A DNA stretch of 64,000 nucleotides from Mycoplana azooxidifex. GTDB lineage: Bacteria > Pseudomonadota > Alphaproteobacteria > Rhizobiales > Rhizobiaceae. The translations under genes and the position numbers were made by a program. Location of the stretch: assembly GCF_014196765.1 (NCBI RefSeq), contig NZ_JACIEE010000007.1, positions 1 through 64,000 of the forward strand, read 5' to 3'. The notes beneath the pieces are model-generated. The model was not told the origin of the DNA. It worked only from the letters and a program-made list of their open reading frames with translations, and did not search any database. Below are positions 23,522-40,693 of this stretch, in pieces; positions within the stretch are counted from its first letter, which is position 1; each line of letters begins with the position of its first letter.

Positions 23522-23544
23522 ACGGAAATCATGGAGCACTGATC

Positions 23545-24585
23545 ATGTCAGTCACAAGCACAACCGACAAGAAATCCGTCTCGAACGGCACCAAGCGCAA
23601 GACCAGCCTCGTCCAGATGCTCCTGGAAGGACGCGCCTTCTTCGCGCTGATTGCGATCATCGTCGTCTTCTCGATCCTTTCGCCCTACTACCTGACGGTC
23701 GAGAACTTCCTCATCATGTCCTCGCACGTGGCCATCTTCGGCCTGCTCGCGATCGGCATGCTGCTGGTCATCCTCAACGGCGGCATCGACCTGTCGGTCG
23801 GCTCGACGCTCGGGCTTTCCGGCGTGATCGCCGGCTTCCTGATGCAGGGCGTGCAACTGGAGCAACTCGGCGTCATCCTCTACCCGCCGGTCTGGGCCGT
23901 CGTCGTCCTGACATGCGCGCTCGGCGCCTTCGTCGGCGCCGTCAACGGCGTGCTGATCGCCTATCTCAGGGTCCCGGCCTTCGTCGCAACGCTCGGCGTC
24001 CTCTATTGCGCCCGTGGCGTGGCGCTGCTGATGACCAACGGCCTGACCTACAACAACCTCAGCGGCCGTCCCGAACTCGGCAACACCGGCTTCGACTGGC
24101 TGGGCTTCAACCGCCTGTTCGGCATTCCGATCGGCGTGCTGGTGCTGGCAGCGCTCGCGATCATCTGCGCGGTGGTGCTGAACCGCACCTCCTTCGGGCG
24201 CTGGCTCTATGCCTCGGGCGGCAACGAGCGGGCCGCCGAGCTGTCGGGCGTCCCCGTCAAGCGCGTGAAGATCACCGTCTACGTGCTCTCGGGCATCTGC
24301 GCCGCCATCGCCGGCCTCGTGCTGTCGTCGCAGCTGACCTCGGCCGGCCCGACCGCGGGCACCACCTACGAGCTGACGGCGATCGCAGCCGTCGTGATCG
24401 GCGGCGCGGCGCTCACCGGCGGCCGCGGCACGATCCAGGGCACCATGCTCGGCGCCTTCGTCATCGGCTTCCTTTCGGACGGCCTCGTCATCATCGGCGT
24501 GTCGTCCTACTGGCAGACCGTTTTCACCGGCGCAGTCATCGTGCTCGCCGTCCTCCTCAACAGCATCCAGTACAGCCGCCGCTAG
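23545..24585 (+). CDS. eryF: Erythritol ABC transporter permease EryF (CUT2)
   Basis: 346-residue RbsC-like permease with eight to ten hydrophobic segments. The CUT2 signature LNGGIDLSVGSTLGLSGVIA appears early, and GRWLYASGGNERAAELSGV later. A single permease implies a homodimer in the membrane. The ATG at 23545 starts a hydrophilic tail rich in Thr and Lys; the open frame extends far upstream but only as out-of-frame eryE. 23 bases separate it from eryE. Confidence 0.88.
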   Translation: MSVTSTTDKKSVSNGTKRKTSLVQMLLEGRAFFALIAIIVVFSILSPYYLTVENFLIMSSHVAIFGLLAIGMLLVILNGGIDLSVGSTLGLSGVIAGFLMQGVQLEQLGVILYPPVWAVVVLTCALGAFVGAVNGVLIAYLRVPAFVATLGVLYCARGVALLMTNGLTYNNLSGRPELGNTGFDWLGFNRLFGIPIGVLVLAALAIICAVVLNRTSFGRWLYASGGNERAAELSGVPVKRVKITVYVLSGICAAIAGLVLSSQLTSAGPTAGTTYELTAIAAVVIGGAALTGGRGTIQGTMLGAFVIGFLSDGLVIIGVSSYWQTVFTGAVIVLAVLLNSIQYSRR

Positions 24586-24713
24586 AGGCCGGCCGGAGGG
24601 ACGCAAACGAAACTTATCCACGACGGCCAATCCGGACCCTTAAGGGCCAGCCGATTGCGGAAAGCAACGCCGGGAGACCGGCACCCCCAACCTGATTGAA
24701 AAGGGAGAGAGAC

Positions 24714-25661
24714 ATGTTCAAGAAGGGTATGCGTATTCTGTTTGCGGCGGTCGCCGCGGTTCCGCTGCTGGCAAGCACCGCATGGGCGGAAGGCCTGATG
24801 ACGATCATCGTCAACGATCCGTCCAACCCCTACTGGTACACCGAAGGCGAAGTCGCCAAGGCAACTGCCGAGAAGATGGGCTATACGGCCACCGTCGGTG
24901 CGCACAAGGGTGATACCAACACCGAAAGCAACCTGATCGACACCGCGATCACCAACAAGTCGGTCGCGATCATCCTCGATCCGGCAAACGCCGACGGCTC
25001 CGTCGGCGCGGTGAAGAAGGCCGTTGCCGCCGGCATCCCGGTCTTCCTCGTCAATGCCGAGATCAACCAGGAAGGCCTTGCCAAGGCGCAGCTCGTTTCC
25101 AACAACGCCCAGGGTGCCGCACTCGGCGCCACGCAGTGGGTCGAGAGCGTCGGCCAGGAAGGCAACTATGTCGAGTTGTTCGGCGCGCCTTCGGACAACA
25201 ATGCCGCCACCCGCTCCAACGGCTACGAGACCGTGCTGACGCAGTATCCGGACCTCGTCAAGGCCGCCCGCGAAGTGGCCGACTGGGACCGCACCAAGGG
25301 CCACGCCAAGATGCAGTCCATGCTGCAGGCCAATCCGGACATCATCGGCGTCATCAGCGGCAACGACGAAATGGCGCTGGGCGCCATTGCAGCCTTGAAG
25401 GAAGCCGGCAAGCTGGCAGGCATCAAGGTCGGCGGTTTCGACGGCTCGCCCGATGCAGTCGCAGCGATCAAGGCCGGCGACCTGCAGTATACCGTGCTCC
25501 AGCCAGTTGCCATCTTCTCCGAGGAAGCCGTCAAGCAGGCCGACAGCTTCATCAAGACCGGCGCCACCGGCGCCAAGAGCGAGAAGCAGCTGTTCGATTG
25601 CCTCCTGATCACCAAGGACAACGTCGACAAGTACACCGCTCCGTTCGTCCTGTCGGAGTGA
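24714..25661 (+). CDS. eryG: Erythritol-binding periplasmic protein EryG (CUT2)
   Basis: 315-residue ribose-binding-type protein. The signal peptide (MFKKGMRILF..., cleavage after ASTAWA at residue 25) precedes a mature start with MTIIVNDPSNPYWYTEGEVAKATAEKMG. The SNGYETVLTQYPDL and ISGNDEMALGAIAALKEAG segments are typical. A good AAGGGAGAGA ribosome site precedes ATG 24714. It captures erythritol for EryE/EryF. A strong hairpin begins ten bases past the stop. Confidence 0.9.
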   Translation: MFKKGMRILFAAVAAVPLLASTAWAEGLMTIIVNDPSNPYWYTEGEVAKATAEKMGYTATVGAHKGDTNTESNLIDTAITNKSVAIILDPANADGSVGAVKKAVAAGIPVFLVNAEINQEGLAKAQLVSNNAQGAALGATQWVESVGQEGNYVELFGAPSDNNAATRSNGYETVLTQYPDLVKAAREVADWDRTKGHAKMQSMLQANPDIIGVISGNDEMALGAIAALKEAGKLAGIKVGGFDGSPDAVAAIKAGDLQYTVLQPVAIFSEEAVKQADSFIKTGATGAKSEKQLFDCLLITKDNVDKYTAPFVLSE

Positions 25662-25791: not shown

Positions 25792-26634
25792 GTGACCAAG
25801 AAAGCGAATGTCGAGCAGCTTCTTTCGGAGCCGATGCCGAGCGACAGCAGGCACGCCCGCCAGCTGGTGCGCCGGCAATTGATCGCCGAGACGGTCATGG
25901 CCGAGGGATCGCTGCGCATCGAGGATCTCACCGAACGCTTCGGCATCAGCCTGATGACGGCGCACCGCGATGTCGACGAACTCGTCAGCCGCGGTATCTT
26001 CCGCAAGTCCCGCGGCATCGTCTCGGCGGCTCCCACCAGTCTGATCGAATCCAGCGACGTCTATCGCGCCAACCGCCAGGCGGCGCAGAAGAAGAACCTG
26101 GCCGAGGTGGCCATGCGCTTCGTGGAGCCCGGCCAGTCGATCTTCCTCGACGATTCCACGACCGTCCTGCAGATGACCGCCCACCTGCCGGCCAAGGTGC
26201 CGCTGACGGCAATCACCAACTCCCTCAATGTCATGAACGCGCTGAGGGGCGTGCGCGACCTGACGCTTCTGGGCCTCGGCGGGCAGTTCCACAACTGGTG
26301 CAACGCCTTCATGGGCCACATGACGACCCGCGAGATCCGGCGGCTGCGGGCAGACATTGCGTTCATGTCGATGTCGGCCATCACCGACGACATCGTGTTC
26401 CACCAGTCGGCGGAGATGGTGGAGACCAAGCGGGCTATGTTCGAATGTGCCGCCCGGCGGGTTCTGGTGGCCGACCACACCAAATTCGAACGGCGCGCCC
26501 TCCACAGTTTCGCGGCCCTTTCGGAGTTCGACGTCGTCATCGTCGACGAGGATACGCCGGTCGAGCATCTCGATCGGCTGCAGTCGAAGGGCATCAACGT
26601 GGTGGTTGCCGGATCCGGCGCGGTCCGCTCCTGA
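25792..26634 (+). CDS. DeoR family transcriptional regulator
   Basis: 280-residue regulator. The N-terminal DeoR helix-turn-helix (about residues 25-80, RIEDLTERFGISLMTAHRDVDELVSRG) is followed by a sugar-phosphate sensor domain with IFLDDSTTVLQMT, TAITNSLNVMN and ADHTKFERRALHSFA. The start is the GTG at 25792, or possibly the ATG at 25834. It lies upstream of and parallel to an FGGY kinase and a GlpD-like gene, so it probably controls them in response to a phosphorylated polyol. A DeoR gene (eryR) also accompanies the Brucella ery locus. Confidence 0.85.
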   Translation: MTKKANVEQLLSEPMPSDSRHARQLVRRQLIAETVMAEGSLRIEDLTERFGISLMTAHRDVDELVSRGIFRKSRGIVSAAPTSLIESSDVYRANRQAAQKKNLAEVAMRFVEPGQSIFLDDSTTVLQMTAHLPAKVPLTAITNSLNVMNALRGVRDLTLLGLGGQFHNWCNAFMGHMTTREIRRLRADIAFMSMSAITDDIVFHQSAEMVETKRAMFECAARRVLVADHTKFERRALHSFAALSEFDVVIVDEDTPVEHLDRLQSKGINVVVAGSGAVRS

Positions 26635-26749
26635 CGGGGCCGGGCTGCAGGACGGCGCCGCCATAAGTCAAACGGGTCCTCGTGTTCCAGACAGGGACCG
26701 CCACAGGACGAGATAGTACCGGACCCTTGCGTCCGCCTGGAGTTTACCC

Positions 26750-28285
26750 ATGCCAAGCATCCTCGGCATCGACAGCGGCCTGACCGTCACCAAGGCTGCC
26801 ATCTTCGACATCGACGGCACGCCGATCGCCGTCGCGCGCCGCCGGGTGTCGCAATCGATCCCCCTCCCCCGCCATGTCGAGCGCGACATGGACGAACTGT
26901 GGACCGCCACCGCCGAGGCCATCGCAGAGGCGATCCGTGCGAGCGGCCGGCCGGCATCGGACATCCAGGCGATTGCCGCCACCGCGCATGGCGACGGCGT
27001 TTACCTCCTCGACACGGATGCAAGACCGCTCGGCCCCGCGATGCTGTCGCTTGACAGCCGGGCGGGCGCGATCGTCGAACGCTGGCAGGAAGACGGCACC
27101 GCCCGGCAGGCGATCGCGCTGACTGGACAAGGGCCGCACGTCTCCGCTCCGGCGGCCCTACTTGCCTGGGTCCGCGACAACGAGCCGGCACGATTTGCGA
27201 AGATCGCCCATATCCTGAGCTGCAAGGACTGGCTGCGTTATTGCCTGACGGGCACGATCGGGGCAGACCGCACGGAGGCCAGCACCTCGTTTACCGACGT
27301 CCGCACACAGGAATATTCGCAGGACGCCCTTCGGCTCTTCGGGCTGGATGCGCTGCGAAACGCGCTGCCGCCTGCCGCCCGCTCCGACGAGGTGGTCGGT
27401 AGGGTGACGGCGGAGGTCGCGCGGCGCACCGGGCTTGCGGCGGGCACCCCTGTTGTCGCCGGGCTGCACGACGTCACGGCATCTGCGCTCGGGGTCGGCG
27501 GACACAAGCCCGGCATCGTCGCCGTGATCGCCGGAACCTATTCGATCAACGAGACGGTATCCTTCGAGCCGCGCGTCGACGGCCGGTGGTTCTGCCGCAA
27601 TGCGATCGTTCCGGGCCAGTGGCACAACATGTCGATCTCGCCGACCTCGACCGCCAACTACGACTGGTTCCTCGACCGGCTCTGCGCAGCCGAGTTCGCG
27701 CAGGCCGAGGCCTCCGGCCGCTCGGTCCATGCCCTGCTCGCGCCCGAGATCGAGGCGGCCTTCGCGCGTCCGTCGACGGCGCTGTTCCATCCCTATCTGT
27801 TCGGCTCGCCCTATGGCGCGGCCGCCAGCGCCGGCTTTACCGGCCTCGGCGGCTGGCATGGTCGCGGCGACATGCTGCGCGCGGTGCTCGAAGGCATCGC
27901 CATGAACCACCGCATCCACGTCGATGCCTTGCGCGACGGCTTTTCCTTCGAGGAGGCGCGCTTGACCGGCGGGATCTCCCGCAACCCGGCCATCGCCCAG
28001 ATGTTCGCAGACGTGCTGGGCATGCCCGTCACCGTCACCGGTACGGACGAATCTGCGGCCTGGGGTGCAGCCCTTTGCGCGGGCGCCGGCGTCGGCATCT
28101 TCCCCGACCATCAGAGCGATCCTCGCGATCTCGTAAGCCTGTCCCGGACCTGCCAACCCGATCCCGTCCGCAGCAGTCACTACGAAGAGCGCTACCGCCT
28201 GTTCTGCGACATCGCCTCCGCCATGACACCGCTCTGGCCGCGCATCTCGGCGCTCGCCGCCTCCGACGGCCCGCCGCGGGGATGA
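26750..28285 (+). CDS. FGGY family carbohydrate kinase (second polyol kinase)
   Basis: 511-residue sugar/polyol kinase. The N-terminal ILGIDSGLTVTKAAIFD phosphate loop, the catalytic-region segment DSRAGAIVERW, CKDWLRYCLTG and the C-terminal ARLTGGISRNPAIAQMFADVLGMPV nucleotide site are all intact. It differs clearly from EryA within the same window and looks closer to L-xylulose-kinase-like members. Substrate unknown. It precedes a GlpD-like dehydrogenase gene by 55 bases, repeating the EryA-EryB logic of phosphorylating first and oxidising second. Confidence 0.88.
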   Translation: MPSILGIDSGLTVTKAAIFDIDGTPIAVARRRVSQSIPLPRHVERDMDELWTATAEAIAEAIRASGRPASDIQAIAATAHGDGVYLLDTDARPLGPAMLSLDSRAGAIVERWQEDGTARQAIALTGQGPHVSAPAALLAWVRDNEPARFAKIAHILSCKDWLRYCLTGTIGADRTEASTSFTDVRTQEYSQDALRLFGLDALRNALPPAARSDEVVGRVTAEVARRTGLAAGTPVVAGLHDVTASALGVGGHKPGIVAVIAGTYSINETVSFEPRVDGRWFCRNAIVPGQWHNMSISPTSTANYDWFLDRLCAAEFAQAEASGRSVHALLAPEIEAAFARPSTALFHPYLFGSPYGAAASAGFTGLGGWHGRGDMLRAVLEGIAMNHRIHVDALRDGFSFEEARLTGGISRNPAIAQMFADVLGMPVTVTGTDESAAWGAALCAGAGVGIFPDHQSDPRDLVSLSRTCQPDPVRSSHYEERYRLFCDIASAMTPLWPRISALAASDGPPRG

Positions 28286-28340
28286 TTGCCCAGCACTTGT
28301 CCCTCCCCTTTCCCATGCCTGAAGACCTGGAATATCCGAA

Positions 28341-30059
28341 ATGACCGAGACCGCCGCCGACATGGACCTGCGCCTTTCGAAACTGGCAGAGGGTGGCGTC
28401 GACGTCGTCATCCTGGGGGCCGGCGTCAACGGCGCGGGGCTCTTCCGCGATCTGTGCCTGCAGGGTGTCACCTGCCTGATCGTCGACAAGGCCGACTTCG
28501 GCTCCGGCACGAGCGCCGCACCCTCGCGCCTCATCCATGGCGGCCTGAAGTATCTGGAGACCGGGGAGTTCGGGCTGGTCGCCCAGTCGACGCTGGAGCG
28601 CAACCTGCTCCTGAAGAACGCGCCGCACTGCGTCGAACCGCTGCCGACCTTCATTCCGGTCTTCTCCTGGACGCGCGGGATCTGGGCAGCCCTTCGCACG
28701 CTCTTTGGCTCGACCATCGCGCCGCGCAGCCGCGGGGCCGTGCTCATCAAGATCGGGCTGGCGCTCTATGATTTCTACGGCTCGCGCAACCAGGTGATGC
28801 CGCGCCACCGGCTCCTGCTGCGCAGGCGAGCGCTTGCCGAAATGCCGAAGGTAACACCCGATATCGTCGCCGGCGGCATCTACTACGACGCAAAGATCAG
28901 CCGGCCGGAACGCCTGGTGTTCGAGCTGGTCGCCGATGGGATTGCTGCGAATCCGAACACGGCTGCGCTGAATTTCACCTCGCTCCGCGCCGCCGAGGGC
29001 GGTAACCTGACCTTCCAGCGTCCCGATGGGAGCACGCTGTCCGTCAGCCCCAAGCTCGTCGTCAACGCCGCCGGCCCCTGGATCGACCGGGTGAACGAAA
29101 CGCTCGGCGCGCCCTCCCACCTGATCGGCGGAACAAAGGGGTCGCATATCCTGCTCGACCATCCGGAACTGGTGAAGAGCCTCAATGGCCACATGATCTA
29201 TTTCGAGGCCGACGACGGACGTATCTGCCTCGTCTACGACTATCTCGGCCTGGCGCTCGTCGGATCGACCGACATTCCCAGCGACGATCCCGACAATGTC
29301 CGCTGCGAGGAAACCGAGACGGCCTATTTCCTGGAAAGCCTCGCCTCGCTGCTGCCCGCCCTTTCCTTCAGCCGGAGCCAGGTTGTCTACAGCTACAGCG
29401 GCATAAGGCCCCTGCCGGCCTCCGACGCCTCCGCGCCCGGCCTCATCAGCCGGGATCATTCCGCACCGGTGCGGGAGCCCGAGACAGACCGCCCCTTCGC
29501 CATCATCTCGCTCGTCGGCGGCAAGTGGACGACGTTTCGCGGCTTTGCGGAGGAAGTCGCCGACACGATCCTCAAGCGGCTGCAGCGCCCGCGCGACAGG
29601 TCGACCCGCGACCTCGCCATCGGCGGCGGAAAGGACTTTCCCTCCGGACCGGCGGAGCGGGCCGAATGGGCAAGAGAGGTCGCGCTTCAGACGGGTCACC
29701 CTCAAGAGAGGGTAGAGGAACTGCTGTCCCGTTACGGAACCACCGCCCTTTCCATCCTGTCGCATCGATCGCCGCACTCGGATCAGGAGCGGCTGCCGGA
29801 TGCGACCGGCTACAGCCTTGCCGAGATCGACTGGATCGCGCGCAACGAGAGCGTCGTGCACCTGGGCGATATCGTGTTCCGGAGGACGACGCTGGCGATC
29901 CTGGGCGCACTTACGGCCGCCGATCTCGCAGCGATTGTCGCAGTCGCCGGGGCGGCACTCGGGTGGACCATGGAACGCAGGGCCGAAGAGCTCGAGGACG
30001 TTGTCCGGACGCTCGAGCGCTATCACGGGCTGAAGCTGAAGCTGGAGCCGGCGGCATGA
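28341..30059 (+). CDS. GlpD-like FAD-dependent polyol-phosphate dehydrogenase
   Basis: 572-residue member of the glycerol-3-phosphate dehydrogenase family, about 70 residues longer than EryB. FAD motif GAGVNGAG is at residues 26-33, followed by GTSAAPSRLIHGGLKYLE, VNAAGPWIDRV, GGTKGSHILLDHPEL, STDIPSDDPDNVRCEE and GGKWTTFRGFAEEVAD. It probably oxidises the product of the adjacent kinase at the membrane. It converges on dhaL, with a 69-base gap that holds only weak dyads. Glycerol-3-phosphate itself as substrate cannot be excluded. Confidence 0.88.
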   Translation: MTETAADMDLRLSKLAEGGVDVVILGAGVNGAGLFRDLCLQGVTCLIVDKADFGSGTSAAPSRLIHGGLKYLETGEFGLVAQSTLERNLLLKNAPHCVEPLPTFIPVFSWTRGIWAALRTLFGSTIAPRSRGAVLIKIGLALYDFYGSRNQVMPRHRLLLRRRALAEMPKVTPDIVAGGIYYDAKISRPERLVFELVADGIAANPNTAALNFTSLRAAEGGNLTFQRPDGSTLSVSPKLVVNAAGPWIDRVNETLGAPSHLIGGTKGSHILLDHPELVKSLNGHMIYFEADDGRICLVYDYLGLALVGSTDIPSDDPDNVRCEETETAYFLESLASLLPALSFSRSQVVYSYSGIRPLPASDASAPGLISRDHSAPVREPETDRPFAIISLVGGKWTTFRGFAEEVADTILKRLQRPRDRSTRDLAIGGGKDFPSGPAERAEWAREVALQTGHPQERVEELLSRYGTTALSILSHRSPHSDQERLPDATGYSLAEIDWIARNESVVHLGDIVFRRTTLAILGALTAADLAAIVAVAGAALGWTMERRAEELEDVVRTLERYHGLKLKLEPAA

Positions 30060-30128
30060 ACGTACACGGCGGTCTCCGGCAGCCTGCCTGTGCGGCCGCC
30101 GAAAGCACCGTATGCCGCTCGCGGGCCA

Positions 30129-30770
30129 CTACGCCTCGGCGACGAACTCCGCCATCCGCCTGATCAGGAAGTAGCCGACGGTCGCTCCCGCGTCCTGCAG
30201 GCCGATCGTCTTTTCCTGGAAGGCGGCGGCCTTGCCGTGTTGGGCGAGCATGGACTTCGTGGCCTCGAGCGCCTGTTCGGCCGCAGCCGAGGTCGCAGCC
30301 AGCGCCTGTGCCAGCGATGCGCCAACCGCGGCTTGCGCCTCGAGCGTCACGGCAATCGGATCGAGGACGTCGAGCAATGTCTTGTCGCCGACCTTGGCCT
30401 TGCCGCGCTCGGCGACGCCATCCCGGAATGCGCGCCAGAAGGCGGCGATATCGGCCGTCCCCAGCGCGTCCCTGCCCTCGACCGCCTTGCTCGCCCGCAG
30501 GAAGCCGGTGGCGGTCAGGGTGCCCATTGTCGACGGTGCGGTCCGGGCCATCGTCGCGCCCGCGGTCCGCAGGAGTTTGGAGATGCCTGCCGCCTCGCCT
30601 TCGACTTCCAACGCCTCGGCGGCGGCGGCGAAGGATTTGCTCATGGTGATGCCGAGGTCGCTGTCGCCGACCTTGCCGTCGAGCGAGATGAGGAATTCGC
30701 GCTGCTGGGCGAACAGCGCCTTCCACGCCTCGAACAGACGGATAATGTCGGAAGCCGTGATCCTATCCAT
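30129..30770 (-). CDS. dhaL: Dihydroxyacetone-kinase-type subunit L (DhaL-like)
   Basis: 213-residue all-helical ADP/ATP-binding subunit. The metal-binding Asp triad of DhaL is present as Asp31, Asp36 and Asp38 in LDGKVGDSDLG, but the His that normally follows (GDxDHG) is Leu39. STMGTLTATGFLRASKAV and GDKTLLDVLDPI are further DhaL landmarks. The frame is open far upstream, but ATG 30770 begins the domain. It follows dhaK by eight bases. No DhaM phosphodonor gene is in the window, so an ATP-dependent kinase acting on a triose or tetrulose is plausible. Confidence 0.88.
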   Translation of the reverse strand: MDRITASDIIRLFEAWKALFAQQREFLISLDGKVGDSDLGITMSKSFAAAAEALEVEGEAAGISKLLRTAGATMARTAPSTMGTLTATGFLRASKAVEGRDALGTADIAAFWRAFRDGVAERGKAKVGDKTLLDVLDPIAVTLEAQAAVGASLAQALAATSAAAEQALEATKSMLAQHGKAAAFQEKTIGLQDAGATVGYFLIRRMAEFVAEA

Positions 30771-30778
30771 GATCGGCC

Positions 30779-31780
30779 TCAACCTGCCAGGTGCTTGAAG
30801 AAGGGCGTATTCGCAGGCGCTGAGACCAGCCGGTCGAGCTCCTCGTCGAGATGCAGGATCGAGACGGAGGCGCCGGCCATTTCCATCGAGGTGGCGAACT
30901 CGCCGACCCAGACGTGCCTGGCGGTGACGCCGCGCTCCTCCAGCAGTTGCGAGACGCGACGGAAGAGAATGTAGAGCTCTTCCATCGGCGTGCCGCCGAG
31001 GCCGTTGACGAGGACGGCCACATCGTCGCCGCGCTTGTAGTCCTGCTCGGCGAAGATGCGCTCCATCATTTCGTCGATGACCTTGTCGGCCGGTGCGAGC
31101 TTCTTTCGACTGATGCCGGGTTCGCCATGGATGCCCATGCCGATCTCCATCTCGTCCTCGCCGATCGAAAAGGTGGCGTGACCGATTTCCGGCACCACGC
31201 AGCTGGACAGCGCCACGCCCATCGTGCGGGTCCTGAGACGCGCCTTGTCCGCCAGACGGGTCACCTCGTCCAGCGACAGGCCCTCGGCGGCAGCGGCGCC
31301 GGCCGCCTTGTAGACGAAAAAGATGCCGGCGACGCCGCGGCGCTTGTGCTCCTCGCCGACGACGGAGGAGGCGACGTCGTCGTTGCCGACGACCTGCCTG
31401 ACCTGGATGCCGTCGAGATCGGCCAGTTCGGCGGCCATGTCGAAATTGATGATGTCGCCGCTGTAGTTCCCGAAGATGTAGAGAACGCCGGCGCCCTGGT
31501 CGATGTGCCTGGTGACCTGATACATCTGCTCGGCGCTGGGCGACTGGAAGACACCCCCAACCGCAGCACCGTCCAGCATGCCGTCGCCGACATAGCCCAG
31601 GAACAGCGGCAGATGGCCCGAGCCGCCGCCGGTTGCGATCCCGACCTTGCCGGCCTTGACCTTGCTCGTGACGAGGCATCGCTTGTCGTCTGCCGCATAG
31701 GTGACGGCGGGATGGGCCTTGTAGATCCCCTCCAGCATCTCGTCGACGAAATTGTTCGGTTCGTTCAGAAACTTCTTCAT
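30779..31780 (-). CDS. dhaK: Dihydroxyacetone-kinase-type subunit K (DhaK-like)
   Basis: 333-residue substrate subunit. The residues that bind and activate the ketose lie at the same numbers as in E. coli DhaK: His56 (GGGSGH), Asp109 (GNYSGD) and His218 (MGIHGEPG), the last forming the covalent hemiaminal with the substrate. It acts on dihydroxyacetone in the classical enzyme, while relatives phosphorylate D- or L-erythrulose in tetritol catabolism. It sits directly downstream of a CUT2 transporter and less than 20 kb from eryH and eryI, which makes erythrulose an attractive substrate. Confidence 0.92.
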   Translation of the reverse strand: MKKFLNEPNNFVDEMLEGIYKAHPAVTYAADDKRCLVTSKVKAGKVGIATGGGSGHLPLFLGYVGDGMLDGAAVGGVFQSPSAEQMYQVTRHIDQGAGVLYIFGNYSGDIINFDMAAELADLDGIQVRQVVGNDDVASSVVGEEHKRRGVAGIFFVYKAAGAAAAEGLSLDEVTRLADKARLRTRTMGVALSSCVVPEIGHATFSIGEDEMEIGMGIHGEPGISRKKLAPADKVIDEMMERIFAEQDYKRGDDVAVLVNGLGGTPMEELYILFRRVSQLLEERGVTARHVWVGEFATSMEMAGASVSILHLDEELDRLVSAPANTPFFKHLAG

Positions 31781-31802
31781 GGGTTCCTCTTTGAAGTAAG
31801 GC

Positions 31803-32837
31803 TTATTTCTTGCGCTGGCGGGTGACGAAGAAGGCGGCGGCCAGCAGGATGAAGCTGCCCACGACGAGCCGCTGCCAGGTACTGGGAATACCCACCATCA
31901 CCAGCACGCTGTTGATCACGACGATCAGCAAAACGCCCAGGATGGTGCCGAGCACCGTGCCGGTGCCGCCCGTGATCCGCGCGCCGCCGAGCACGACGGC
32001 GGCGATCACGTTGATTTCCGTTCCGACCAGGTCGAAGGGATTGGCCTGCCGGTTGGCGCAGACGTGGATGATGCCCGCAAGCCCCGCAAGCGCGCCGGCA
32101 TAGCCGAACAGGAAGATGTGCACGGTGCGCAGGCTGTAGCCGAGGCGGCTTGCAATGTTGGCGTTGCCGCCGACGGCGAAGATCGCGCGCCCCATCAACG
32201 TGCGGTTCAGGATCCACCAGGTGACGAAGGCCGCGAGCGGAAGGAACAGGAAGTAGACCGGAAGGGTGACGATAGCGCCATTGGCGGATTCGAACTGGAA
32301 GAGCGGCATGCGGCCGAAGGCGCCCATCTGCGGCGGCAGCGACATGATCCACACCGTGCCGATGAAGGAGAGCAGGAACCCGCGGAACAGGTATTGCGTG
32401 CCGATGGTGACGATCAGCGAGGGAACGTTCAGGTGATGGACCAGCAGCCCGTTGATGATGCCGAGCAGCGCGCCGCCGCCGATCGCGACCAGCATGATGA
32501 CCGCCATCGGCATGCCGGGGAAATGGTTCAGCACCAGCACCGTCAGCGAGTACATGGTGAAGGCTGCGATCGCCGTGAAGGACACGTCGATGCCGCCGGC
32601 GGCGAGAATGATGAAGACGCCCAGCGCGAAGAGCCCCATCACCACGCTTGCGCGGCCGATGTCGATGAGCGTCGAGGGCTGCAGGAAGGCGGGGTTGATG
32701 ATCGCGACGATCACGCAGATCGCAACCAGCAGCATGAAGGTGATCGTTTCCGGCCTTCTGCGGACGAGTTCGCCCAGGCTGAAGGATCGGCCGGCGGAGG
32801 CGCTTTCGGAGAGCTCGTCGATCCGTGAAGTGCTCAT
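31803..32837 (-). CDS. CUT2 ABC transporter permease
   Basis: 344-residue RbsC/RhaQ-like permease with many hydrophobic segments. The family signatures ILAAGGIDVSFTAIAAFTMY and GRAIFAVGGNANIASRLGYS are present. The ATG at 32837 overlaps the ATPase stop by four bases (32834-32837). It is the second of two unequal permeases in this operon, so the channel is probably a heterodimer, as in rhamnose (RhaPQ) and Lsr transporters. Read on the minus strand with dhaK and dhaL downstream. Confidence 0.9.
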   Translation of the reverse strand: MSTSRIDELSESASAGRSFSLGELVRRRPETITFMLLVAICVIVAIINPAFLQPSTLIDIGRASVVMGLFALGVFIILAAGGIDVSFTAIAAFTMYSLTVLVLNHFPGMPMAVIMLVAIGGGALLGIINGLLVHHLNVPSLIVTIGTQYLFRGFLLSFIGTVWIMSLPPQMGAFGRMPLFQFESANGAIVTLPVYFLFLPLAAFVTWWILNRTLMGRAIFAVGGNANIASRLGYSLRTVHIFLFGYAGALAGLAGIIHVCANRQANPFDLVGTEINVIAAVVLGGARITGGTGTVLGTILGVLLIVVINSVLVMVGIPSTWQRLVVGSFILLAAAFFVTRQRKK

Positions 32838-34387
32838 TGAACGGCCTCCAATTTCGATGTCAGCATTGCCTTGTAAAGCTGGTCCTCGGTCGACTGCCCG
32901 GCGTCGACCTCGGCGACGACGCGACCGCTGTTCATGATCAGGATGCGGTCCGCGTTCTGCAGCAGTTCCGGCAGGTCGTCGCTGACGATCACAAGTCCCA
33001 TGCCGGCTTCGGCCAGGGACTGGATCGCGCGATAGATCGTGTCCTTCGAGCCCACGTCGACGCCCACAGTCGGGCCGTGCAGCACGAGCAGCTTCGGGGC
33101 GATGCTGAGCCAGCGGCCGATCAGGACGCGCTGCTGGTTGCCGCCGGAAAGGGCGCCCACCGGCAGGTCCAGGTTCTTCGTATTGAGGCGCATCTCTTCG
33201 GAAAGGCGTGCGGCGATCGTGCGGCCCTCGTTCCTGTCGATGACGCCGAAGGCATTGCTGAGCCTGCTCAGGATCAACGCGATCTCGTTCTCGAGGATCG
33301 ACTTGTCCAGGAAGAGTCCCTCGGCGAGGCGATCCTCGGGCACGTAGCCGATGCCATGGGCAATCGCGTCAGCCGGGCGGCGTATTGCAAGACTGCGTCC
33401 GTCGAGCGTCATCGCGCCGCTGCTCGCCGGTTCGACACCGGTGATGGCCATGGCAAGCTCGTTGCGTCCGGAATCGGCAAGGCCGGTGATCCCGAGGATC
33501 TCCCCCTTGCGAACATTGAAGCTGATGTCCTTTACACCGGGCGCGGAAAGCTTCGAGGCCTCGAAGAGGACAGTGTCGGAAGGCTTGCCGGTCCGGTAGC
33601 GCTCCGAACCGATGGAGCGGCCGGTCATCAGCTCGGCGAGCTGTTTCTTGGAATAGTCCTCGATCGGTCCCTGGGCGACGCACTGGCCGTCCCGGAAGAC
33701 GACAGCGTGACCACCGATGCGATAGCACTCGTCGAGCTTGTGGGTGACGAACAGGACGGCGACGTTCTCGGCGCGCAACCGCTCGACGACGCGGACAAGG
33801 TTATCCACCTCCCGCCGGGTGAGCGAGGTCGTCGGCTCGTCCATGATGACAAGCTTGGCGCGCGTGGCGATAGCGCGCGCGATGGCGACGAGCTGGCGGG
33901 CGGCCAGCGGCAGGTCGGAGACCGTGGTGCCGAGGAAGAAGCGATCCGTCGGCAGGCCGACGGCAGCGAGCGCCCTTTCGGCGGTCTGCCTGAGGCGTGC
34001 ACGGTCGAAGAGGCGGGCGAGGCGCCCGTTGGCGGCGACGAGTTGCTCGTTCAGCGCCACGTTCTCGGCGACCGTGAGGTTCGGAAGCAGGGACAGATCC
34101 TGGTAGACCGTCTCGATGCCGGCGGCCAGCGACTGGATCGGGGTGAGCGCGGAATACGTCTGGCCGTCCAGCACGATCTCGCCCGCGCTCGGCTCCAGCG
34201 CGCCGGACATGATCTTGATGACGGTGCTCTTGCCGCAGCCGTTCTCGCCAAGCAGGTGGTAGGCCTGGCCAAGTTCGAGCGTCAGCGAGATGCCGCGAAG
34301 GGCATGCACGCCGCCGAACCATTTCTGGATGTCCCTGAGCTCCAGGAACGGACCCGGGCCGTTCCCGCTGTTATCTTTCGCCGACAC
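32834..34387 (-). CDS. CUT2 ABC transporter ATP-binding protein (two NBDs)
   Basis: 517-residue RbsA/RhaT-like ATPase. NBD1 is intact, with Walker A GENGCGKST and Walker B VIMDEPTTSLT. In NBD2 the Walker A is degenerate (GLADSGRNE), LSGGNQQRV is present, but Walker B reads LLVLHGPTVGVDVG, with HG where the usual DE pair stands. This site is therefore unlikely to hydrolyse ATP. The start is the GTG at 34387, seven bases after GAGGG; there is no ATG near the domain. A hairpin separates it from the binding-protein gene upstream. Confidence 0.9.
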   Translation of the reverse strand: MSAKDNSGNGPGPFLELRDIQKWFGGVHALRGISLTLELGQAYHLLGENGCGKSTVIKIMSGALEPSAGEIVLDGQTYSALTPIQSLAAGIETVYQDLSLLPNLTVAENVALNEQLVAANGRLARLFDRARLRQTAERALAAVGLPTDRFFLGTTVSDLPLAARQLVAIARAIATRAKLVIMDEPTTSLTRREVDNLVRVVERLRAENVAVLFVTHKLDECYRIGGHAVVFRDGQCVAQGPIEDYSKKQLAELMTGRSIGSERYRTGKPSDTVLFEASKLSAPGVKDISFNVRKGEILGITGLADSGRNELAMAITGVEPASSGAMTLDGRSLAIRRPADAIAHGIGYVPEDRLAEGLFLDKSILENEIALILSRLSNAFGVIDRNEGRTIAARLSEEMRLNTKNLDLPVGALSGGNQQRVLIGRWLSIAPKLLVLHGPTVGVDVGSKDTIYRAIQSLAEAGMGLVIVSDDLPELLQNADRILIMNSGRVVAEVDAGQSTEDQLYKAMLTSKLEAVQ

Positions 34388-34438
34388 GTCGGTATCCCTC
34401 GTGAATTGACACTGGCCGCGCCGATGGCGCAGCACGCG

Positions 34439-34471
34439 CGGCCGGGGCGCTCGCGAAGAGCGCCCCGGCCG
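34439..34471 (-). terminator. Attenuator hairpin after the CUT2 binding-protein gene
   Basis: Perfect 14-base arms (CGGCCGGGGCGCTC at 34439-34452, complement at 34458-34471) around a five-base loop. The hairpin begins 15 bases past the binding-protein stop and ends 51 bases before the ATPase start. It probably protects or partly terminates the upstream transcript. Confidence 0.7.
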
Positions 34472-34486
34472 TCTAGTGGGGAGCGA

Positions 34487-35497
34487 CTAGAACAGGAAGT
34501 CCTTGTAGGTGGCCTTGTCGGCCAGGACCATGCCGTTGCCGATGACGAGCAGGCCTTCGCCGGCTCCCTTCTTGACGGCGACCTTGTTGTAGCCTTCGAC
34601 GCCGAGGTCCATGCCGTCGGTCACTTCCTTCTTCTCCAGCAGGAGCTTGGCGACGGCATTCATGGCCATGCCGGCCTTCTGCGGATCCCAGAAACCGATG
34701 GCGGTGATCGCGCCGGATTCCAGCAGATCGGCCGAGGGATTCGGCAATCCGGTGCCGACGAGGCATACTTTGCCTGTCAGGCCGGCTTCGTCGATCGCGC
34801 GGCCGACGCCGAGCACGTCGTTGCCGGCAGACGTCTGGAAGCCCTTGATGTCGGGATGCTTGCGCAGGATTTCCTTGGCCTTCTCATAGGTGCCGTTGGC
34901 ATCGTCGAAGGATTCGTTGTTCGGATCGACGAGCTGCATGCCGGAATACTTCTTGGCATTCTCCTCGCCGGCACCGACCCACTGCATGTGCGTCCGGCTG
35001 CCAAGCGAACCGACGAAGGTCGTCCACTTGCCTTCCTTGTTCATGCATTCGGCAAGGCGCTCGTTCAGTGCCGAGCCGTAGTCGGCGTTGTCGAACGCCT
35101 CCACGTCCGCCTGGGTGTTGACCTGGTTGTCGGCTTCATGGGTGACGACGACAATGCCGCGTTCCATGGCCCGCTTGAACGTGCCTTCGAGTACGGCAGG
35201 GTCCATCGGCACGACGGCGAGAGCATTGACGCCCTTGGCGACGAGATCCTGGATGATCTGCAGCTGCTGCGCGGAGTCGGCGGTGGCCGGGCCGCTCTGG
35301 CTTGCGTCCACGTCCGCATTTGCCTCGGCGAAGGCTTCGACGCCGGTATTCATGCGGTCGAACCACGGAATCCCGCTGATCTTCACCACGGTGGCGATGA
35401 CGGGCTTTTCCTGCGCCAGCAGCGTGCCGACCGATCCGGTAAGCAGCGCGGCCGCGACGGTAGTGCCGGCCAGAAACTTCTTGGAAAGTGTTTTCAT
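34487..35497 (-). CDS. CUT2 substrate-binding protein (RhaS/LsrB-like)
   Basis: 336-residue periplasmic binding protein. The signal peptide MKTLSKKFLAGTTVAAALL... precedes the mature EKPVIATVVKISGIPWFDRMNTGVEAF. The ligand cleft segments resemble rhamnose and AI-2 binders: QIIQDLVAKGVNALAVVPMD, THEADNQVN and VGTGLPNPSADLLESGAI. A GGAGGAGAAA ribosome site lies upstream of ATG 35497. The operon lacks rhamnose or LsrFG enzymes, so neither ligand is supported. A small polyhydroxy ketone or polyol delivered to DhaKL fits the context better. Confidence 0.88.
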   Translation of the reverse strand: MKTLSKKFLAGTTVAAALLTGSVGTLLAQEKPVIATVVKISGIPWFDRMNTGVEAFAEANADVDASQSGPATADSAQQLQIIQDLVAKGVNALAVVPMDPAVLEGTFKRAMERGIVVVTHEADNQVNTQADVEAFDNADYGSALNERLAECMNKEGKWTTFVGSLGSRTHMQWVGAGEENAKKYSGMQLVDPNNESFDDANGTYEKAKEILRKHPDIKGFQTSAGNDVLGVGRAIDEAGLTGKVCLVGTGLPNPSADLLESGAITAIGFWDPQKAGMAMNAVAKLLLEKKEVTDGMDLGVEGYNKVAVKKGAGEGLLVIGNGMVLADKATYKDFLF

Positions 35498-35521
35498 TTT
35501 CTCCTCCACATTAGATCTCCC

Positions 35522-36553
35522 TCAGTTGTCTTGCTTCGGCGCATGAGGGATCGGCACCGAAGGAATGGGCTGCCCCCTGGCGGGAAACAGGAAGCCGGTG
35601 AGGTCGTATCGACCGACCGCCAGGAAGGCGAGAAGCAGCAGGCCCCAGGCGAAATCGCGCACGAAATTGGAAAGGCCGCCGAAATTGAGCAGGCTGGACA
35701 TCAGCTGCAGCGCCACCGCGCTCAGCACCACGCAGACCACCCGCCCGTAGCCACCCTCCGGCTTCACCCCGGCCATGACGACGATCAGGATGGCGATCAG
35801 AAGGTAGGAGCTGCCGTAGTCGAACTTCACGTTGACGTTGCGCGCGGCGATGATCACGCCCGCCAGTCCCGAAAGCGTGCCGCTGATCGCATAGGTGGCG
35901 ACCAGAACGCCGGTCCTGGGAAAGCCCGCATAGACCGCGGCCTTCGGATTGGTGCCCATCAGCATCAGCCACAAGCCGTATGGAGTGAACTTCAGCGCCG
36001 CCGCGATCAGGCCGGCCGCGATGATGAAGATGAGAAAGCTGATCGGCACCGCCAGGAACATGTCGTTGCCGATGCTGGAGAGCAGCGCCGGGCTGCCGAC
36101 CATGACGGCCTTGCCGCCCGAAACGACGACGGCGAGCCCCATGAAAGCCATCTGCGTGCCGAGCGTGCACAAGATCGGCGTGATGTTCAGCTTCGAGATC
36201 AGCAGGCCGTTGATCACGCCGCCGGCACACCCGATCGACACCGCGGCGAAGATGAACGCCAGGCTGAAGACCGTCTCGCTTTCCGAAACAGAAAGGAAGG
36301 ACGACACGATCACGGCGGAAAGAACGCCGGAGAGGTTGGCAAGCGCGATGCCGGAAAGGTCTATCCCGCCATTGCCGGCGCACATGGCGAGCATGACGCC
36401 GATCGCAAGCAGGCCGATTTCAGGCAACTGGCTTGCCATGGACTGAAGATTGAAAAGCGAAAGAAAGGTGCCGCCGGAAATGATGGCGCCAAGAACCAGC
36501 AGCAGGCCATTGATCGCAACGAGCATGACCAGCTGCCCGCCGGTTTTCTGCAT
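35522..36553 (-). CDS. CUT2 ABC transporter permease (first of two)
   Basis: 343-residue RbsC-like permease with about nine hydrophobic segments. It opens with LVMLVAINGLLLVLGAIISGG and includes LAMCAGNGGIDLSGIALANLSG, the family ligand-channel signature. It pairs with the permease encoded at 31803-32837. First gene of the transporter-dhaKL operon, starting 17 bases from a TTTACTAAA repressor box and divergent from the LacI-type regulator. Confidence 0.9.
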   Translation of the reverse strand: MQKTGGQLVMLVAINGLLLVLGAIISGGTFLSLFNLQSMASQLPEIGLLAIGVMLAMCAGNGGIDLSGIALANLSGVLSAVIVSSFLSVSESETVFSLAFIFAAVSIGCAGGVINGLLISKLNITPILCTLGTQMAFMGLAVVVSGGKAVMVGSPALLSSIGNDMFLAVPISFLIFIIAAGLIAAALKFTPYGLWLMLMGTNPKAAVYAGFPRTGVLVATYAISGTLSGLAGVIIAARNVNVKFDYGSSYLLIAILIVVMAGVKPEGGYGRVVCVVLSAVALQLMSSLLNFGGLSNFVRDFAWGLLLLAFLAVGRYDLTGFLFPARGQPIPSVPIPHAPKQDN

Positions 36554-36569
36554 GGTCTCCTCCTCCCAT

Positions 36570-36599
36570 GTTTACTAAACAAGCGCGAGCTTTACTAAA
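36570..36599. promoter_or_regulatory. LacI-type operator boxes O1 and O2
   Basis: GTTTACTAAAC at 36570-36580, a perfect dyad about a central base, and a second copy of the core TTTACTAAA at 36591-36599, 21 bases (two helical turns) away. They lie 16 bases upstream of the permease start. The same 11-mer recurs at 36700 before the LacI gene. Confidence 0.7.
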
Positions 36600-36699
36600 G
36601 GATTAGCAAAGCAAATTCGGGAACGCAAGCCTGTTTTCGATGAATCCTGGTTGCGAAGTCGTCGGTTTTGGCCTAACTCTCGCCACATATTGCAGATGC

Positions 36700-36710
36700 G
36701 TTTACTAAAC
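36700..36710. promoter_or_regulatory. LacI-type operator box O3
   Basis: A second exact copy of GTTTACTAAAC, 43 bases upstream of the LacI-family gene and 130 bases from O1. Paired distant and adjacent copies suit repression by looping and autoregulation. Binding by the neighbouring LacI protein is inferred from position. Confidence 0.7.
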
Positions 36711-36753
36711 TTCTTCGCGTCTGCAGCAAAATCTGGGAGCCGTTCGGGGACGC

Positions 36754-37845
36754 ATGAAGAAACAGAAGGCATTGACGATCCGGGATATTGCGGGGGCGGC
36801 GGGCGTGTCGCCGGCCACCGTCTCGCTCGTCCTGAACGGCAAGGGCGAGATTTCCGGCGTGACCCGGGCGCGCGTGTTGGAAGCGGTCGCAAGCCTCAAC
36901 TACGTGCCCCGCGCCTCGAGAAGCAGTGCGGAGCCGAGCGAGACACTGCGCTTCCTGAAGATCGCCAAGCACGGCCACACCGTGAATCGCGACCACAGCG
37001 TTTTCATCTCCGATTACATCGACGGCATGTCGGCCGAGGCGACGCGGCGCAACTACACGCTCGAAGTGGTGAGCTTCGAGGGCCAGCCGATCAGCGCGGT
37101 GGCGGAATCGCTGGCCGGCGCCCCTATATCGGGCGTGATCGCGCTCGGCACGGAACTGACCGAAGCCGATATTCGCCTGATCCAGGGCCTCGGCCTGCCG
37201 ACAGTGTTCATCGACACCTTCTACCCGGTCCTCGATGCCAACTTCGTCGACATGAACAACGAGGATGCGGTGCACAAGGTGCTCGCGCGCTTCCACAAGC
37301 AGGGCTACGAGCGCGTCGGCTTCGTCGCCTCGCACGTCGACACCACCAATTTCCGGCTCCGCCGTGACGCCTTTTTCACCAACATGGCGCGGCTCGGGCT
37401 GAAGGTTCGCGAATCCGACATCCTCTCGGTCGAGTCGACCTATGACGGCGCCTATCTCGACACCCGGGCGCAGCTCGAAGGCGGGCTGGACCTCGCCGAA
37501 TGCTACTTCTGCACCAACGACATCATCGCCTACGGCTTCATCCGCGCGCTCAAGGAGCACGGCGTCTCGATCCCCGACGACGTTTCGGTCATCGGCTTCG
37601 ACAACCTGCCTCAGAGCGCCACCATGGAACCGGCGCTGACGACCATCGAGGTGTCGAAACGCAAGATCGGCTACCTGGCCGTCACCATGCTCGATGACCT
37701 GATCAACGCCGCCGAGCCGCAACCACCGGTGAAGATGCTGGTCGGCGCCGACCTGGTGCTGCGTGCAAGCCACGAGCGGGGCGCCGCCAGGGCCGCGAAC
37801 CGCCGCACGTCAGAAGCCCGGGCGACGAAGCTGCCCGCGGACTGA
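36754..37845 (+). CDS. LacI family transcriptional regulator
   Basis: 363-residue repressor. The LacI helix-turn-helix (LTIRDIAGAAGVSPATVSLVLNG, residues 8-30) with a hinge helix is followed by a periplasmic-binding-protein-like effector domain with SDYIDGMSAEATRR, TVFIDTFYPVLDANFVDMNNEDA and DDVSVIGFDNLPQSATMEPALTTIEV. A 25-residue Arg/Ala-rich tail extends beyond the usual end. Divergent from the CUT2-dhaKL operon, with three TTTACTAAA boxes between, so it almost certainly regulates that operon. The aldo/keto reductase gene follows in the same direction. Confidence 0.92.
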   Translation: MKKQKALTIRDIAGAAGVSPATVSLVLNGKGEISGVTRARVLEAVASLNYVPRASRSSAEPSETLRFLKIAKHGHTVNRDHSVFISDYIDGMSAEATRRNYTLEVVSFEGQPISAVAESLAGAPISGVIALGTELTEADIRLIQGLGLPTVFIDTFYPVLDANFVDMNNEDAVHKVLARFHKQGYERVGFVASHVDTTNFRLRRDAFFTNMARLGLKVRESDILSVESTYDGAYLDTRAQLEGGLDLAECYFCTNDIIAYGFIRALKEHGVSIPDDVSVIGFDNLPQSATMEPALTTIEVSKRKIGYLAVTMLDDLINAAEPQPPVKMLVGADLVLRASHERGAARAANRRTSEARATKLPAD

Positions 37846-37981
37846 CGCCGGGCGGAGGAACAGGGAGGATTTCACGGCCGCAGCCACCGTCCATCGGCGC
37901 CGCGGCCGGCATCACGGCAGACTGACGCCCGTCTGCAGCCTGACGAAACACGACACAGAACCATTCTCGGGAGTTGGAACC

Positions 37982-39043
37982 ATGGAATACAGGACGCTCG
38001 GCCGCTCCGGCCTCAAGGTCTCGGCCATCGCAATGGGCACGTTCTCGTTCGGCGGCGTGGGTGCCTTCGCCAAGGTGGCGAGCCAGGACGTGCGGGAGGC
38101 GCGAAGGCTGGTCGACGCCTGCATCGACGGCGGCGTCAACCTGTTCGATACCGCCAACATGTATTCGCTCGGCCGCTCGGAGGAGATCCTCGGCGAGGCG
38201 CTCGACGACAAGCGCGATCGCGTCCTGATCTCGTCCAAAGCCCGCATGCGTATCGGCGACGGGCCGAACGACGAGGGCGTCTCGCGCTATCATCTGATCC
38301 GCGAATGCGAGCTAAGCCTGAAGCGGCTCGGAACCGACCATATCGACATCTACTTCATGCACGAATGGGACGGGCAGACGCCGCTGGAGGAGATGCTGTC
38401 CGCGCTCGACACGCTCCGCCAACAGGGCAAGATCCGCTATATCGGCTGCTCGAACTATTCGGGCTGGCACATCATGAAGGCGCTCGGCGTCGCCGAGGCG
38501 AAGAACCTCCCGCGCTTCGTGACCCAGCAGATCCACTACACGCTCGAGGCGCGCGAAGCCGAATACGAACTCCTGCCGATCTCCGTCGACCAGGGCCTCG
38601 GCGTCATGGTCTGGAGCCCGCTGGCGGCCGGTTTGCTGTCTGGCGCCTTCGGTCGCAACAAGGCGCCGGCGCAGTCGCGACAGGCTGCCGGCTGGACGGA
38701 ACCTCCGATCCGCGACGAGGAGCGGTTGTGGAGGATCGTCGACGTTCTGGAGCAGATCGCCGCGGAGCGGGGCGCGACGGCTGCCCAGGTCTCCCTCGCC
38801 TGGACCTTGTCGCGACCGGCCATAGCAACGGCCGTGGTGGGCGGCCTGACAGAACAGCAGTTCATCGAGAACATCGCCGCCGCCGACCTGAAGCTCGACA
38901 CCGGCGAACTGGACCGGCTCAACAAGGCAAGCCGGCCGGCCTATATCTATCCCTATTGGCACCAGCACAATTTCGCCCGGGATCGGTTCAGCCCGGGCGA
39001 CTGGGCGCTGCACGAGGCCTACGAGGATCTGGGCATGATCTGA
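37982..39043 (+). CDS. Aldo/keto reductase
   Basis: 353-residue NADPH-type aldo/keto reductase with a TIM barrel. The tetrad is visible: Asp and Tyr in FDTANMYSLGRSEE, Lys in LISSKARM and His in IYFMHEWDG. The C-terminal nucleotide segment contains PAIATAVVGGLTEQQFIENI. It resembles the YghZ/YajO-like group acting on small aldehydes or sugars. It follows the LacI gene by 136 bases and may share its regulation, possibly converting a keto or aldo form of the substrate of the dhaKL operon. Confidence 0.88.
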   Translation: MEYRTLGRSGLKVSAIAMGTFSFGGVGAFAKVASQDVREARRLVDACIDGGVNLFDTANMYSLGRSEEILGEALDDKRDRVLISSKARMRIGDGPNDEGVSRYHLIRECELSLKRLGTDHIDIYFMHEWDGQTPLEEMLSALDTLRQQGKIRYIGCSNYSGWHIMKALGVAEAKNLPRFVTQQIHYTLEAREAEYELLPISVDQGLGVMVWSPLAAGLLSGAFGRNKAPAQSRQAAGWTEPPIRDEERLWRIVDVLEQIAAERGATAAQVSLAWTLSRPAIATAVVGGLTEQQFIENIAAADLKLDTGELDRLNKASRPAYIYPYWHQHNFARDRFSPGDWALHEAYEDLGMI

Positions 39044-40672: not shown

Positions 40673-40693
40673 ATGCGGCGCTGTTCGCGGAAA

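Follow-up and report, generated by a model that had tools for sequence, protein, structure and literature searches.

A probable arm of the Mycoplana azooxidifex erythritol locus with an FGGY kinase and a GlpD-like dehydrogenase, and a neighbouring DhaKL operon predicted to be independent of it

The first 64,000 nucleotides of contig NZ_JACIEE010000007.1 of Mycoplana azooxidifex (contig 7 of a 5.88-Mb genome, assembly GCF_014196765.1), hereafter the window, carry an erythritol (ery) locus of the Rhizobium leguminosarum type, beside which lie the two units considered here: a DeoR regulator with a second FGGY kinase (FGGY2) and a GlpD-like dehydrogenase (GlpD2), and a block made of dhaK, dhaL, an importer of the CUT2 family, a LacI regulator and an aldo/keto reductase. 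An earlier note on this DNA had read both units as accessory routes of a single C4-polyol island, and the genes that it named are all present where it placed them, as judged by profile matches and gene calls. The ery trunk is encoded on the minus strand by rpiB/eryI, of the D-erythrulose-4-phosphate isomerase family (13941-14396; NCBIfam NF051858, 256.2 bits against a cut-off of 240, in the frame 13941-14966), tpiB/eryH for a TIM-family isomerase (14393-15178; NF000722, 445 bits against 293), eryD for a SorC/DeoR-type regulator (15228-16169; below the DeoR/LsrR model cut-offs and assigned by synteny), eryC for a TIM-barrel isomerase/epimerase (16355-17287; PF01261), eryB for a GlpD-family dehydrogenase that passes two GlpD cut-offs (17313-18824) and eryA for the FGGY erythritol kinase (18900-20450; FGGY family, below the known equivalog cut-offs, motif GQGDGTW), whose product matches relatives within ery loci at 73-77%. 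On the plus strand, a gene for a DUF2291 lipoprotein (21318-21974; PF10054) heads the CUT2 importer genes eryEFG (21971-25661: ATPase 21971-23521, permease 23545-24585, binding protein 24714-25661), whose proteins match R. leguminosarum WSM1325 at 84-88%. The joint presence of eryABCD, tpiB, rpiB and eryEFG corresponds to the R. leguminosarum-type set, by gene order against strains WSM1325 and 3841. The window has no eryR (DeoR) gene between eryD and tpiB, where the gap amounts to 49 bases (15178 to 15228); a DeoR gene is found instead after eryG.

This DeoR gene (25792-26634, plus strand; PF00455, PF08220) is followed on the same strand by FGGY2 (26750-28285; PF00370, PF02782), proposed here to encode a tetritol kinase, and by glpD2 (28341-30059; PF01266, PF16901), whose product, a GlpD-like flavin adenine dinucleotide (FAD) dehydrogenase, is the proposed tetritol-phosphate dehydrogenase. 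Both proteins score well below all the equivalog cut-offs listed, so that annotation provides a substrate for neither. The identification of FGGY2 as GlpK, with glycerol as the likely substrate, was rejected (131.4 bits against 590.35, and AHGDG where N-Q-R-E is expected), as was its identification as an EryA ortholog, since the two are only 28% identical and the EryA clade of the kinase tree (15 rows, 100/100) excludes FGGY2; six own-genome rows of this tree are wrong reading frames, and the motifs were taken from a separate alignment. No terminator or promoter was found in a scan of 29900-30350, and the Rfam scan gave no match at gathering scores.

The relatives of FGGY2 were collected by a pattern scan of one genome per species (84,980 species) with two conserved peptides taken from an eight-row FGGY2 alignment; it gave 342 relatives, the best 80 of which (70-94% identity) were kept and their loci searched by tblastn with the window proteins. 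Every one of these best 80 orthologs lies beside ery genes. FGGY2, glpD2, eryF and eryG were detected in all 80 loci, eryA, eryE, the DUF2291 gene and deoR in 79 (deoR at no less than 50% identity), eryB in 78 and eryC in 75, and 71 loci display exactly the order eryC-eryB-eryA divergent from DUF2291-eryE-eryF-eryG-deoR-FGGY2-glpD2. The other nine comprise three with an extra dhaK after glpD2, five without eryC, and partly without more, within the stretch, and one with eryD and, at the thresholds used, no deoR. The deoR-FGGY-glpD run after eryG is also present, under generic annotation, in R. leguminosarum WSM1325 and on pRL12 of R. johnstonii 3841, where the FGGY-glpD pair occupies 203836-207154.

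A second survey covered 249 genomes of the order (E 1e-90, with the best six candidates per genome scored in the FGGY2 search and the best eight in the DhaK search), 21 of which, the window's own included, contain relatives of eryC. FGGY2 homologs of at least 45% identity occur in 15 genomes, in 13 of them within 12 kb of eryC and in the remaining two beside tpiB (G282) or rpiB (G085); none of the 19 homologs of 36-41% is near eryC. Moreover, the place of the pair around the ery genes varies in this sample (after eryG, rpiB, eryD or dhaK), and a position that changes while the company of ery is kept speaks for a functional link and against a frozen gene order. These data support placing deoR-FGGY2-glpD2, as one of its arms, in the erythritol locus of the Rhizobium/Ochrobactrum type, and on this point they agree with the earlier note, which had taken the kinase-dehydrogenase pair under DeoR for an ery accessory.

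Some observations weigh against this assignment. In eight of the 21 eryC genomes no FGGY2 of at least 45% lies nearby, which makes the arm dispensable for an ery locus; a DeoR of the window's type (65-70%) stands beside the pair only in L108-L110 and L128 among the order-sample loci, those elsewhere having a DeoR of 36-42% or none; the FGGY2 of genome G221 has an internal stop; and the linkage across the 80 relatives owes partly to common descent. Furthermore, the FGGY-GlpD pair that is nearest in the genome itself, a paralogous one on contig C5 accompanied by an aldolase and another CUT2 importer, is not ery-linked. The architecture is thus not bound to ery, and FGGY2 and GlpD2 might serve a different polyol, e.g., a methylated tetritol, a pentitol or glycerol, and merely travel with the ery genes. 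The linkage of FGGY2 is, however, specific to ery, and the NQRE motif, which we take to be a mark of glycerol kinases, occurs in two of the genome's other kinases but not in FGGY2, so that a different polyol is considered rather unlikely. A class-wide FGGY2 search at E 1e-120 matched 1 of 385 genomes, the window's own.

The arm of the ery locus, once accepted as such, leads to the question of its substrate. Of the genome's 13 FGGY kinases, FGGY2 (AHGDGVY) and EryA (GQGDGTW) alone carry G-D-G in the N-terminal substrate motif, and the CKDW motif is likewise confined to these two; of the others, two have NQRE and three have GQMHG, presumably a mark of xylulokinases. The Asp of GDG aligns opposite the His of QMHG in the solved structure of XylB, at a position that we assume to function in the substrate site. 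Two points speak against a kinship in function, namely the distance of FGGY2 from EryA given above and the GNG, in place of GDG, of its nearest own paralog (39%, C5). Judged from motifs and gene context, FGGY2 is most likely a second tetritol kinase and GlpD2 a tetritol-phosphate dehydrogenase, together feeding EryC, EryH and EryI. In the proposed route, FGGY2 would phosphorylate a second tetritol, GlpD2 would oxidise the tetritol phosphate by means of FAD, with electrons passing to quinone, to erythrulose-1-phosphate, and EryC, EryH and EryI would then take this product to D-erythrose-4-phosphate, while DeoR would sense an intermediate of the kinase arm. For the isomerases, we assume that LerI corresponds to EryH, and DerI is equated with EryI from its NCBIfam name. 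According to the passages of PMC10733421 on these enzymes, EryC interconverts D- and L-erythrulose-1-phosphate, LerI converts the L form to D-erythrulose-4-phosphate, and DerI leads to erythrose-4-phosphate. As regards the regulator, the part of PMC3522698 dealing with Brucella abortus gives a 2.3-fold increase on erythritol for a DeoR gene in the corresponding position, behind the erythritol transporter genes.

The choice among tetritols can be narrowed by genome G282 (locus L117), in which FGGY2-deoR-GlpD2 and ABC transporter genes lie next to the gene of an EryH-type TIM (67-68%), and in which no eryC was detected at E 1e-90. If the pathway of G282 uses its TIM, the product of GlpD2 would be L-erythrulose-1-phosphate, whether the starting compound is L-threitol or erythritol that receives its phosphate at the other end. 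In the latter case the pair would be a second erythritol route, in which phosphorylating the meso substrate at its opposite end yields L-erythrulose-1-phosphate directly and EryC is bypassed. By our own reasoning its stereochemical outcome equals that of L-threitol, and it agrees both with the G282 pair beside an EryH-type TIM in the absence of a detected eryC and with a GDG motif in FGGY2 as in EryA; it would be redundant, however, beside EryABC, which are found gene by gene in 75 to 79 of the 80 loci, and we rate it as quite improbable. L-threitol as the source of L-erythrulose-1-phosphate is favoured because G282 keeps the pair, an importer of its own and the EryH-type isomerase, with no eryC detected. 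We infer from this one genome, and put forward only tentatively, that FGGY2 may phosphorylate L-threitol and GlpD2 may act as L-threitol-1-phosphate dehydrogenase, in a predicted kinase-first route meeting that of erythritol at EryH. The L-threitol prediction is limited in that the search of G282 for eryA and eryB covered its 20-kb stretch, and the sole RpiB of this genome is remote (45%, on another contig).

The second unit begins beyond glpD2 with dhaL (30129-30770, minus strand; TIGR02365, 117.8 bits, below the cut-off of 138.3) and dhaK (30779-31780, minus strand; TIGR02363, 390.1 bits, below the cut-off of 406.25), the latter of GHLP/GNY type with Gly at the place of E. coli Lys104. The genes of a CUT2 importer lie on the same strand (31803-36553: permease 31803-32837, ATPase 32834-34387, binding protein 34487-35509, permease 35522-36553), and on the plus strand follow a LacI regulator gene (36754-37845; profile match), divergent from the importer operon, and the aldo/keto reductase gene (about 37982-39043; PF00248, with NCBIfam matches below cut-off), the profile match of which starts at residue 74 of the frame opening at 37763. 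The CUT2 importer and LacI regulator of the earlier note are therefore borne out, and the importer has two permeases. Because the DhaKL operon is oriented towards glpD2 and away from LacI, it does not share a transcript with the kinase pair.

An alignment shows that the segment 30068-39098 is absent from this junction in Rhizobium sp. GN54 (L138) and in AFS054471 (L139). GN54 is 91% identical to the window as far as 30067, and its alignment picks up again at 39099 after 37 intervening bases; AFS054471 is aligned to 30059 and likewise resumes at 39099. Copies found elsewhere match window 30139-39043 as a unit, although the aldo/keto reductase part is absent from some, and in G002 the DhaKL block is on a different contig from the ery locus. 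A dhaK of at least 40% follows glpD2 in only 3 of the 80 ery loci (L145, L180, L214), and it is of a 41-42% type. We infer from these comparisons that the block of about 9 kb probably entered the gap between glpD2 and an amidase gene, rather than having been lost in the relatives. Two details complicate this reading: AFS054471 has 476 other bases between its aligned parts, and GN54 also lacks window 40616-41749, so the junction is not its sole difference. The short stretches at the two insertion borders share no 8-base word, direct or inverted. A TctC gene at 40694 falls within 40616-41749 and is gone from the otherwise collinear GN54.

In a tree of 77 DhaK rows, gathered by likeness to the window protein and for that reason undersampled in KNY types, the window DhaK belongs to a 27-row GHLP clade (98/91), apart from the DhaKs neighbouring DthD (10 rows, 100/100) and from those of ery loci; it is, in other words, not a member of the DerK-like clade, in which DhaK stands beside a DthD-family dehydrogenase. 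The gene context was followed in those 21 of the 26 other clade rows whose stretch is at least about 19 kb long, leaving aside five rows with loci of only about 4 kb (L010, L012, L014, L022, L023) as well as L129, which is of another clade; the stretches are not always centred, and that of L092 starts about 1 kb from DhaK at a contig end. None of these 21 loci has, within its stretch, eryA (45%), eryB (55%), eryC (50%), tpiB (50%), rpiB (55%), FGGY2/glpD2 (44%) or DthD (50%). DhaKL and the CUT2 binding protein recur at 77% or more in eight other genomes (G002, G003, G015, G033, G112, G119, G154, G232). In three of them (G003, G033, G112; 99-100% complete), searches for an EryH-type TIM (E 1e-40), an EryI-type isomerase (E 1e-25) and any member of the RpiB family (E 0.001) gave nothing, which argues that the operon works there without the ery trunk. 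The G003 copy is close to that of the window (DhaK 86%, binding protein 87-88%, aldo/keto reductase 81%, DhaL 71%). The view that DhaKL is a conserved component of the ery locus was rejected on account of the relatives with an empty junction and of the 21 clade loci devoid of ery genes within their stretches. The same evidence, together with the three genomes lacking the isomerases, does not support the idea of the earlier note that DhaK and DhaL feed the ery trunk, and the integrated island that it had drawn survives only in its DeoR-FGGY2-GlpD2 half. The DhaKL-CUT2-LacI-aldo/keto reductase block is predicted to be a self-contained operon for uptake and phosphorylation, able to do without the ery trunk, and on the whole we hold it rather probable that the first unit is an arm of the ery locus while the second is a separate, inserted operon independent of that trunk.

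As regards what this operon phosphorylates, the window DhaK keeps in alignment the equivalents of His56, Asp109 and His218 of E. coli DhaK, which we take to be catalytic, and has FGNYSGD in place of K-N-Y, with Gly where E. coli has Lys104, in our understanding a dihydroxyacetone contact. A literature search returned no paper pairing Lys104 with dihydroxyacetone kinase, most subscription literature being outside its reach. GNY occurs in 75 of the 77 DhaK rows, and KNY only in the two copies on contig C10 of the same genome. The Gly at the Lys104 place points to a substrate other than dihydroxyacetone, and the missing isomerases speak against a tetrulose. The binding protein encoded at 34487 has its best solved-structure matches in 5bra, then 9i1m, 3d02, LsrB and others, the names of which give no ligand. 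By these signs, the substrate may be a small carbonyl sugar, with a triose placed first. In a triose operon, the kinase would make triose phosphate from dihydroxyacetone or glyceraldehyde with no need of a special isomerase, in agreement with the presence of the operon in genomes without RpiB. Enterobacterial plasmid members of the clade have a class II aldolase with a phosphotransferase system (PTS; L135) or a DapA-family aldolase (L134), either of which could free a small aldehyde, e.g., glyceraldehyde, and an aldo/keto reductase of at least 60% accompanies the operon in 10 of the 21 clade loci. It is, however, missing from the other 11, the presumed dihydroxyacetone contact is lost, and the genome already has its two KNY-type copies on C10; a triose operon is accordingly seen as a serious candidate that falls somewhat short of an even chance. 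The E. coli IncN plasmid of L135 (NZ_CP027125.1, about 3800-11000) carries the window-clade DhaK (57%), DAK2, HPr, the PTS and the class II aldolase, and the same 57.3% DhaK match recurs in many further enterobacterial records.

The integrated island requires, by comparison, that DhaKL phosphorylate D- or L-erythrulose imported by its own CUT2 system and that the product enter EryC, EryH and EryI. To its credit, the GNY of the window DhaK departs from the canonical KNY in a way common to the DhaKs that neighbour DthD-type dehydrogenases, proteins related to the CUT2 binding protein (51-57%) are encoded with such DhaKs and an rpiB in L099, L101, L103 and L226, and the genome has its two KNY-type DhaKs on C10. 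Nevertheless, it is hard to reconcile with the empty junction of two relatives, with 21 clade loci that contain no eryA, eryB, eryC, tpiB, rpiB or DthD within their stretches, with genomes carrying the operon in the absence of an EryH-type TIM or RpiB at the thresholds given, and with a separate DthD locus in the same genome, and we regard it as improbable.

The more general idea of the earlier note, that DhaK-type kinases join ery loci, proves correct for other lineages. A DhaK (E 1e-85) lies within 20 kb of eryC in 6 of the 21 eryC genomes (G000, G244, G120, G243, G103, G183, with G243 and G103 from one genus), i.e., in 5 of the 20 besides the window's, and dhaK follows glpD2 in the three loci already mentioned; in the 77-row tree, none of these ery-linked DhaKs other than the window's falls within the window clade. 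Locus L113 (G120:C2:136001-156000) presents the collinear series eryA-eryB-eryC-eryD-tpiB-rpiB-dhaK-dhaL-FGGY2-deoR-glpD2, fully integrated and with a DhaK of a different lineage. The genome of M. azooxidifex itself contains on contig C16 (L123, C16:40001-60000) a GolD/DthD-family dehydrogenase (411 bits against a cut-off of 286), DhaK, two DhaL and a CUT2 importer, and this locus is a better candidate for D-threitol than the DhaKL of the window. A 705-residue protein of the same locus (L123, 8211-10328) fuses a SorC/DeoR-type regulator to a DhaK domain, which may act as a tetrulose sensor; a long DhaK with an eryD-like part is likewise found on an S. meliloti plasmid (L136, 4629-6716). Contig C3 (L124, C3:518001-538000) has, at 8537-10240, a GHYP-type DhaK forming a clade (100/100) with the post-glpD2 DhaKs of L145, L180 and L214, and it may be the genome's own ery-type tetrulose kinase, located away from the locus. 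In the C5 locus (L122, C5:370001-390000), the FGGY (39%) and GlpD (44%) pair has a DhnA-type aldolase between its members and is joined by aldo/keto reductases, a GMC oxidoreductase and the CUT2 importer, a set that would make up another polyol pathway, and at L229 (C7:230001-250000) a second rpiB (66-68%) adjoins paralogous eryG, DUF2291, eryE and eryF genes (33-50%).

In the passages of PMC3599248, PMC3522698, PMC10190533, PMC2364660 and PMC5758756 that deal with it, the ery locus is described up to eryG or the following DeoR gene. No mention of a second kinase-dehydrogenase pair was found in their text on the locus, figures lying outside this comparison, and the word FGGY is absent from PMC3599248, PMC10190533, PMC5758756 and PMC2364660. 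A search for "threitol kinase" found no paper, most subscription literature being outside its scope and an earlier description being possible. A classic catabolic locus apparently has a conserved kinase arm that was overlooked: in scores of species the pair belongs to the well-studied ery locus of rhizobia and the Brucella group, with no role assigned to it in those parts of the literature that were available. It bears on a question posed as open in 2025, namely which kinases and transporters serve tetroses, as set out in a section of PMC12780249. If the L-threitol prediction is true, a kinase-first threitol route has been carried unnoticed within the standard Rhizobium erythritol locus. The neighbouring DhaKL operon, a tempting candidate, is set aside as an ery component.

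Among known systems, the R. leguminosarum-type locus is like that of the window in eryABCD, tpiB, rpiB and DUF2291-eryEFG, and differs in its eryR between eryD and tpiB, which the window lacks there (Geddes 2013, PMC3599248). EryA and EryB are the same family pair as FGGY2 and GlpD2, and the two kinases share GDG and CKDW; they are, however, just 28% identical, and EryB passes the GlpD cut-offs whereas GlpD2 falls below them. With E. coli DhaKL the window DhaK has in common the His56, Asp109 and His218 equivalents and differs in having Gly for Lys104 and GHLP for GHEP; no DhaM gene was found within the window DhaKL operon, to which that search was confined. In the M. azooxidifex genome the DthD-family set lies outside the window, on contig C16. 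As for Mycobacterium smegmatis, we take its LerK to be a member of the DhaK family. LerK is an erythrulose kinase, and the tetritol pathways of this organism feed the same erythrulose-phosphate isomerases as the proposed arm (Huang 2015, as cited in PMC10733421 and PMC12780249); the dehydrogenase acts there first and the kinase second, whereas in the proposed FGGY2-GlpD2 arm the kinase would come first.

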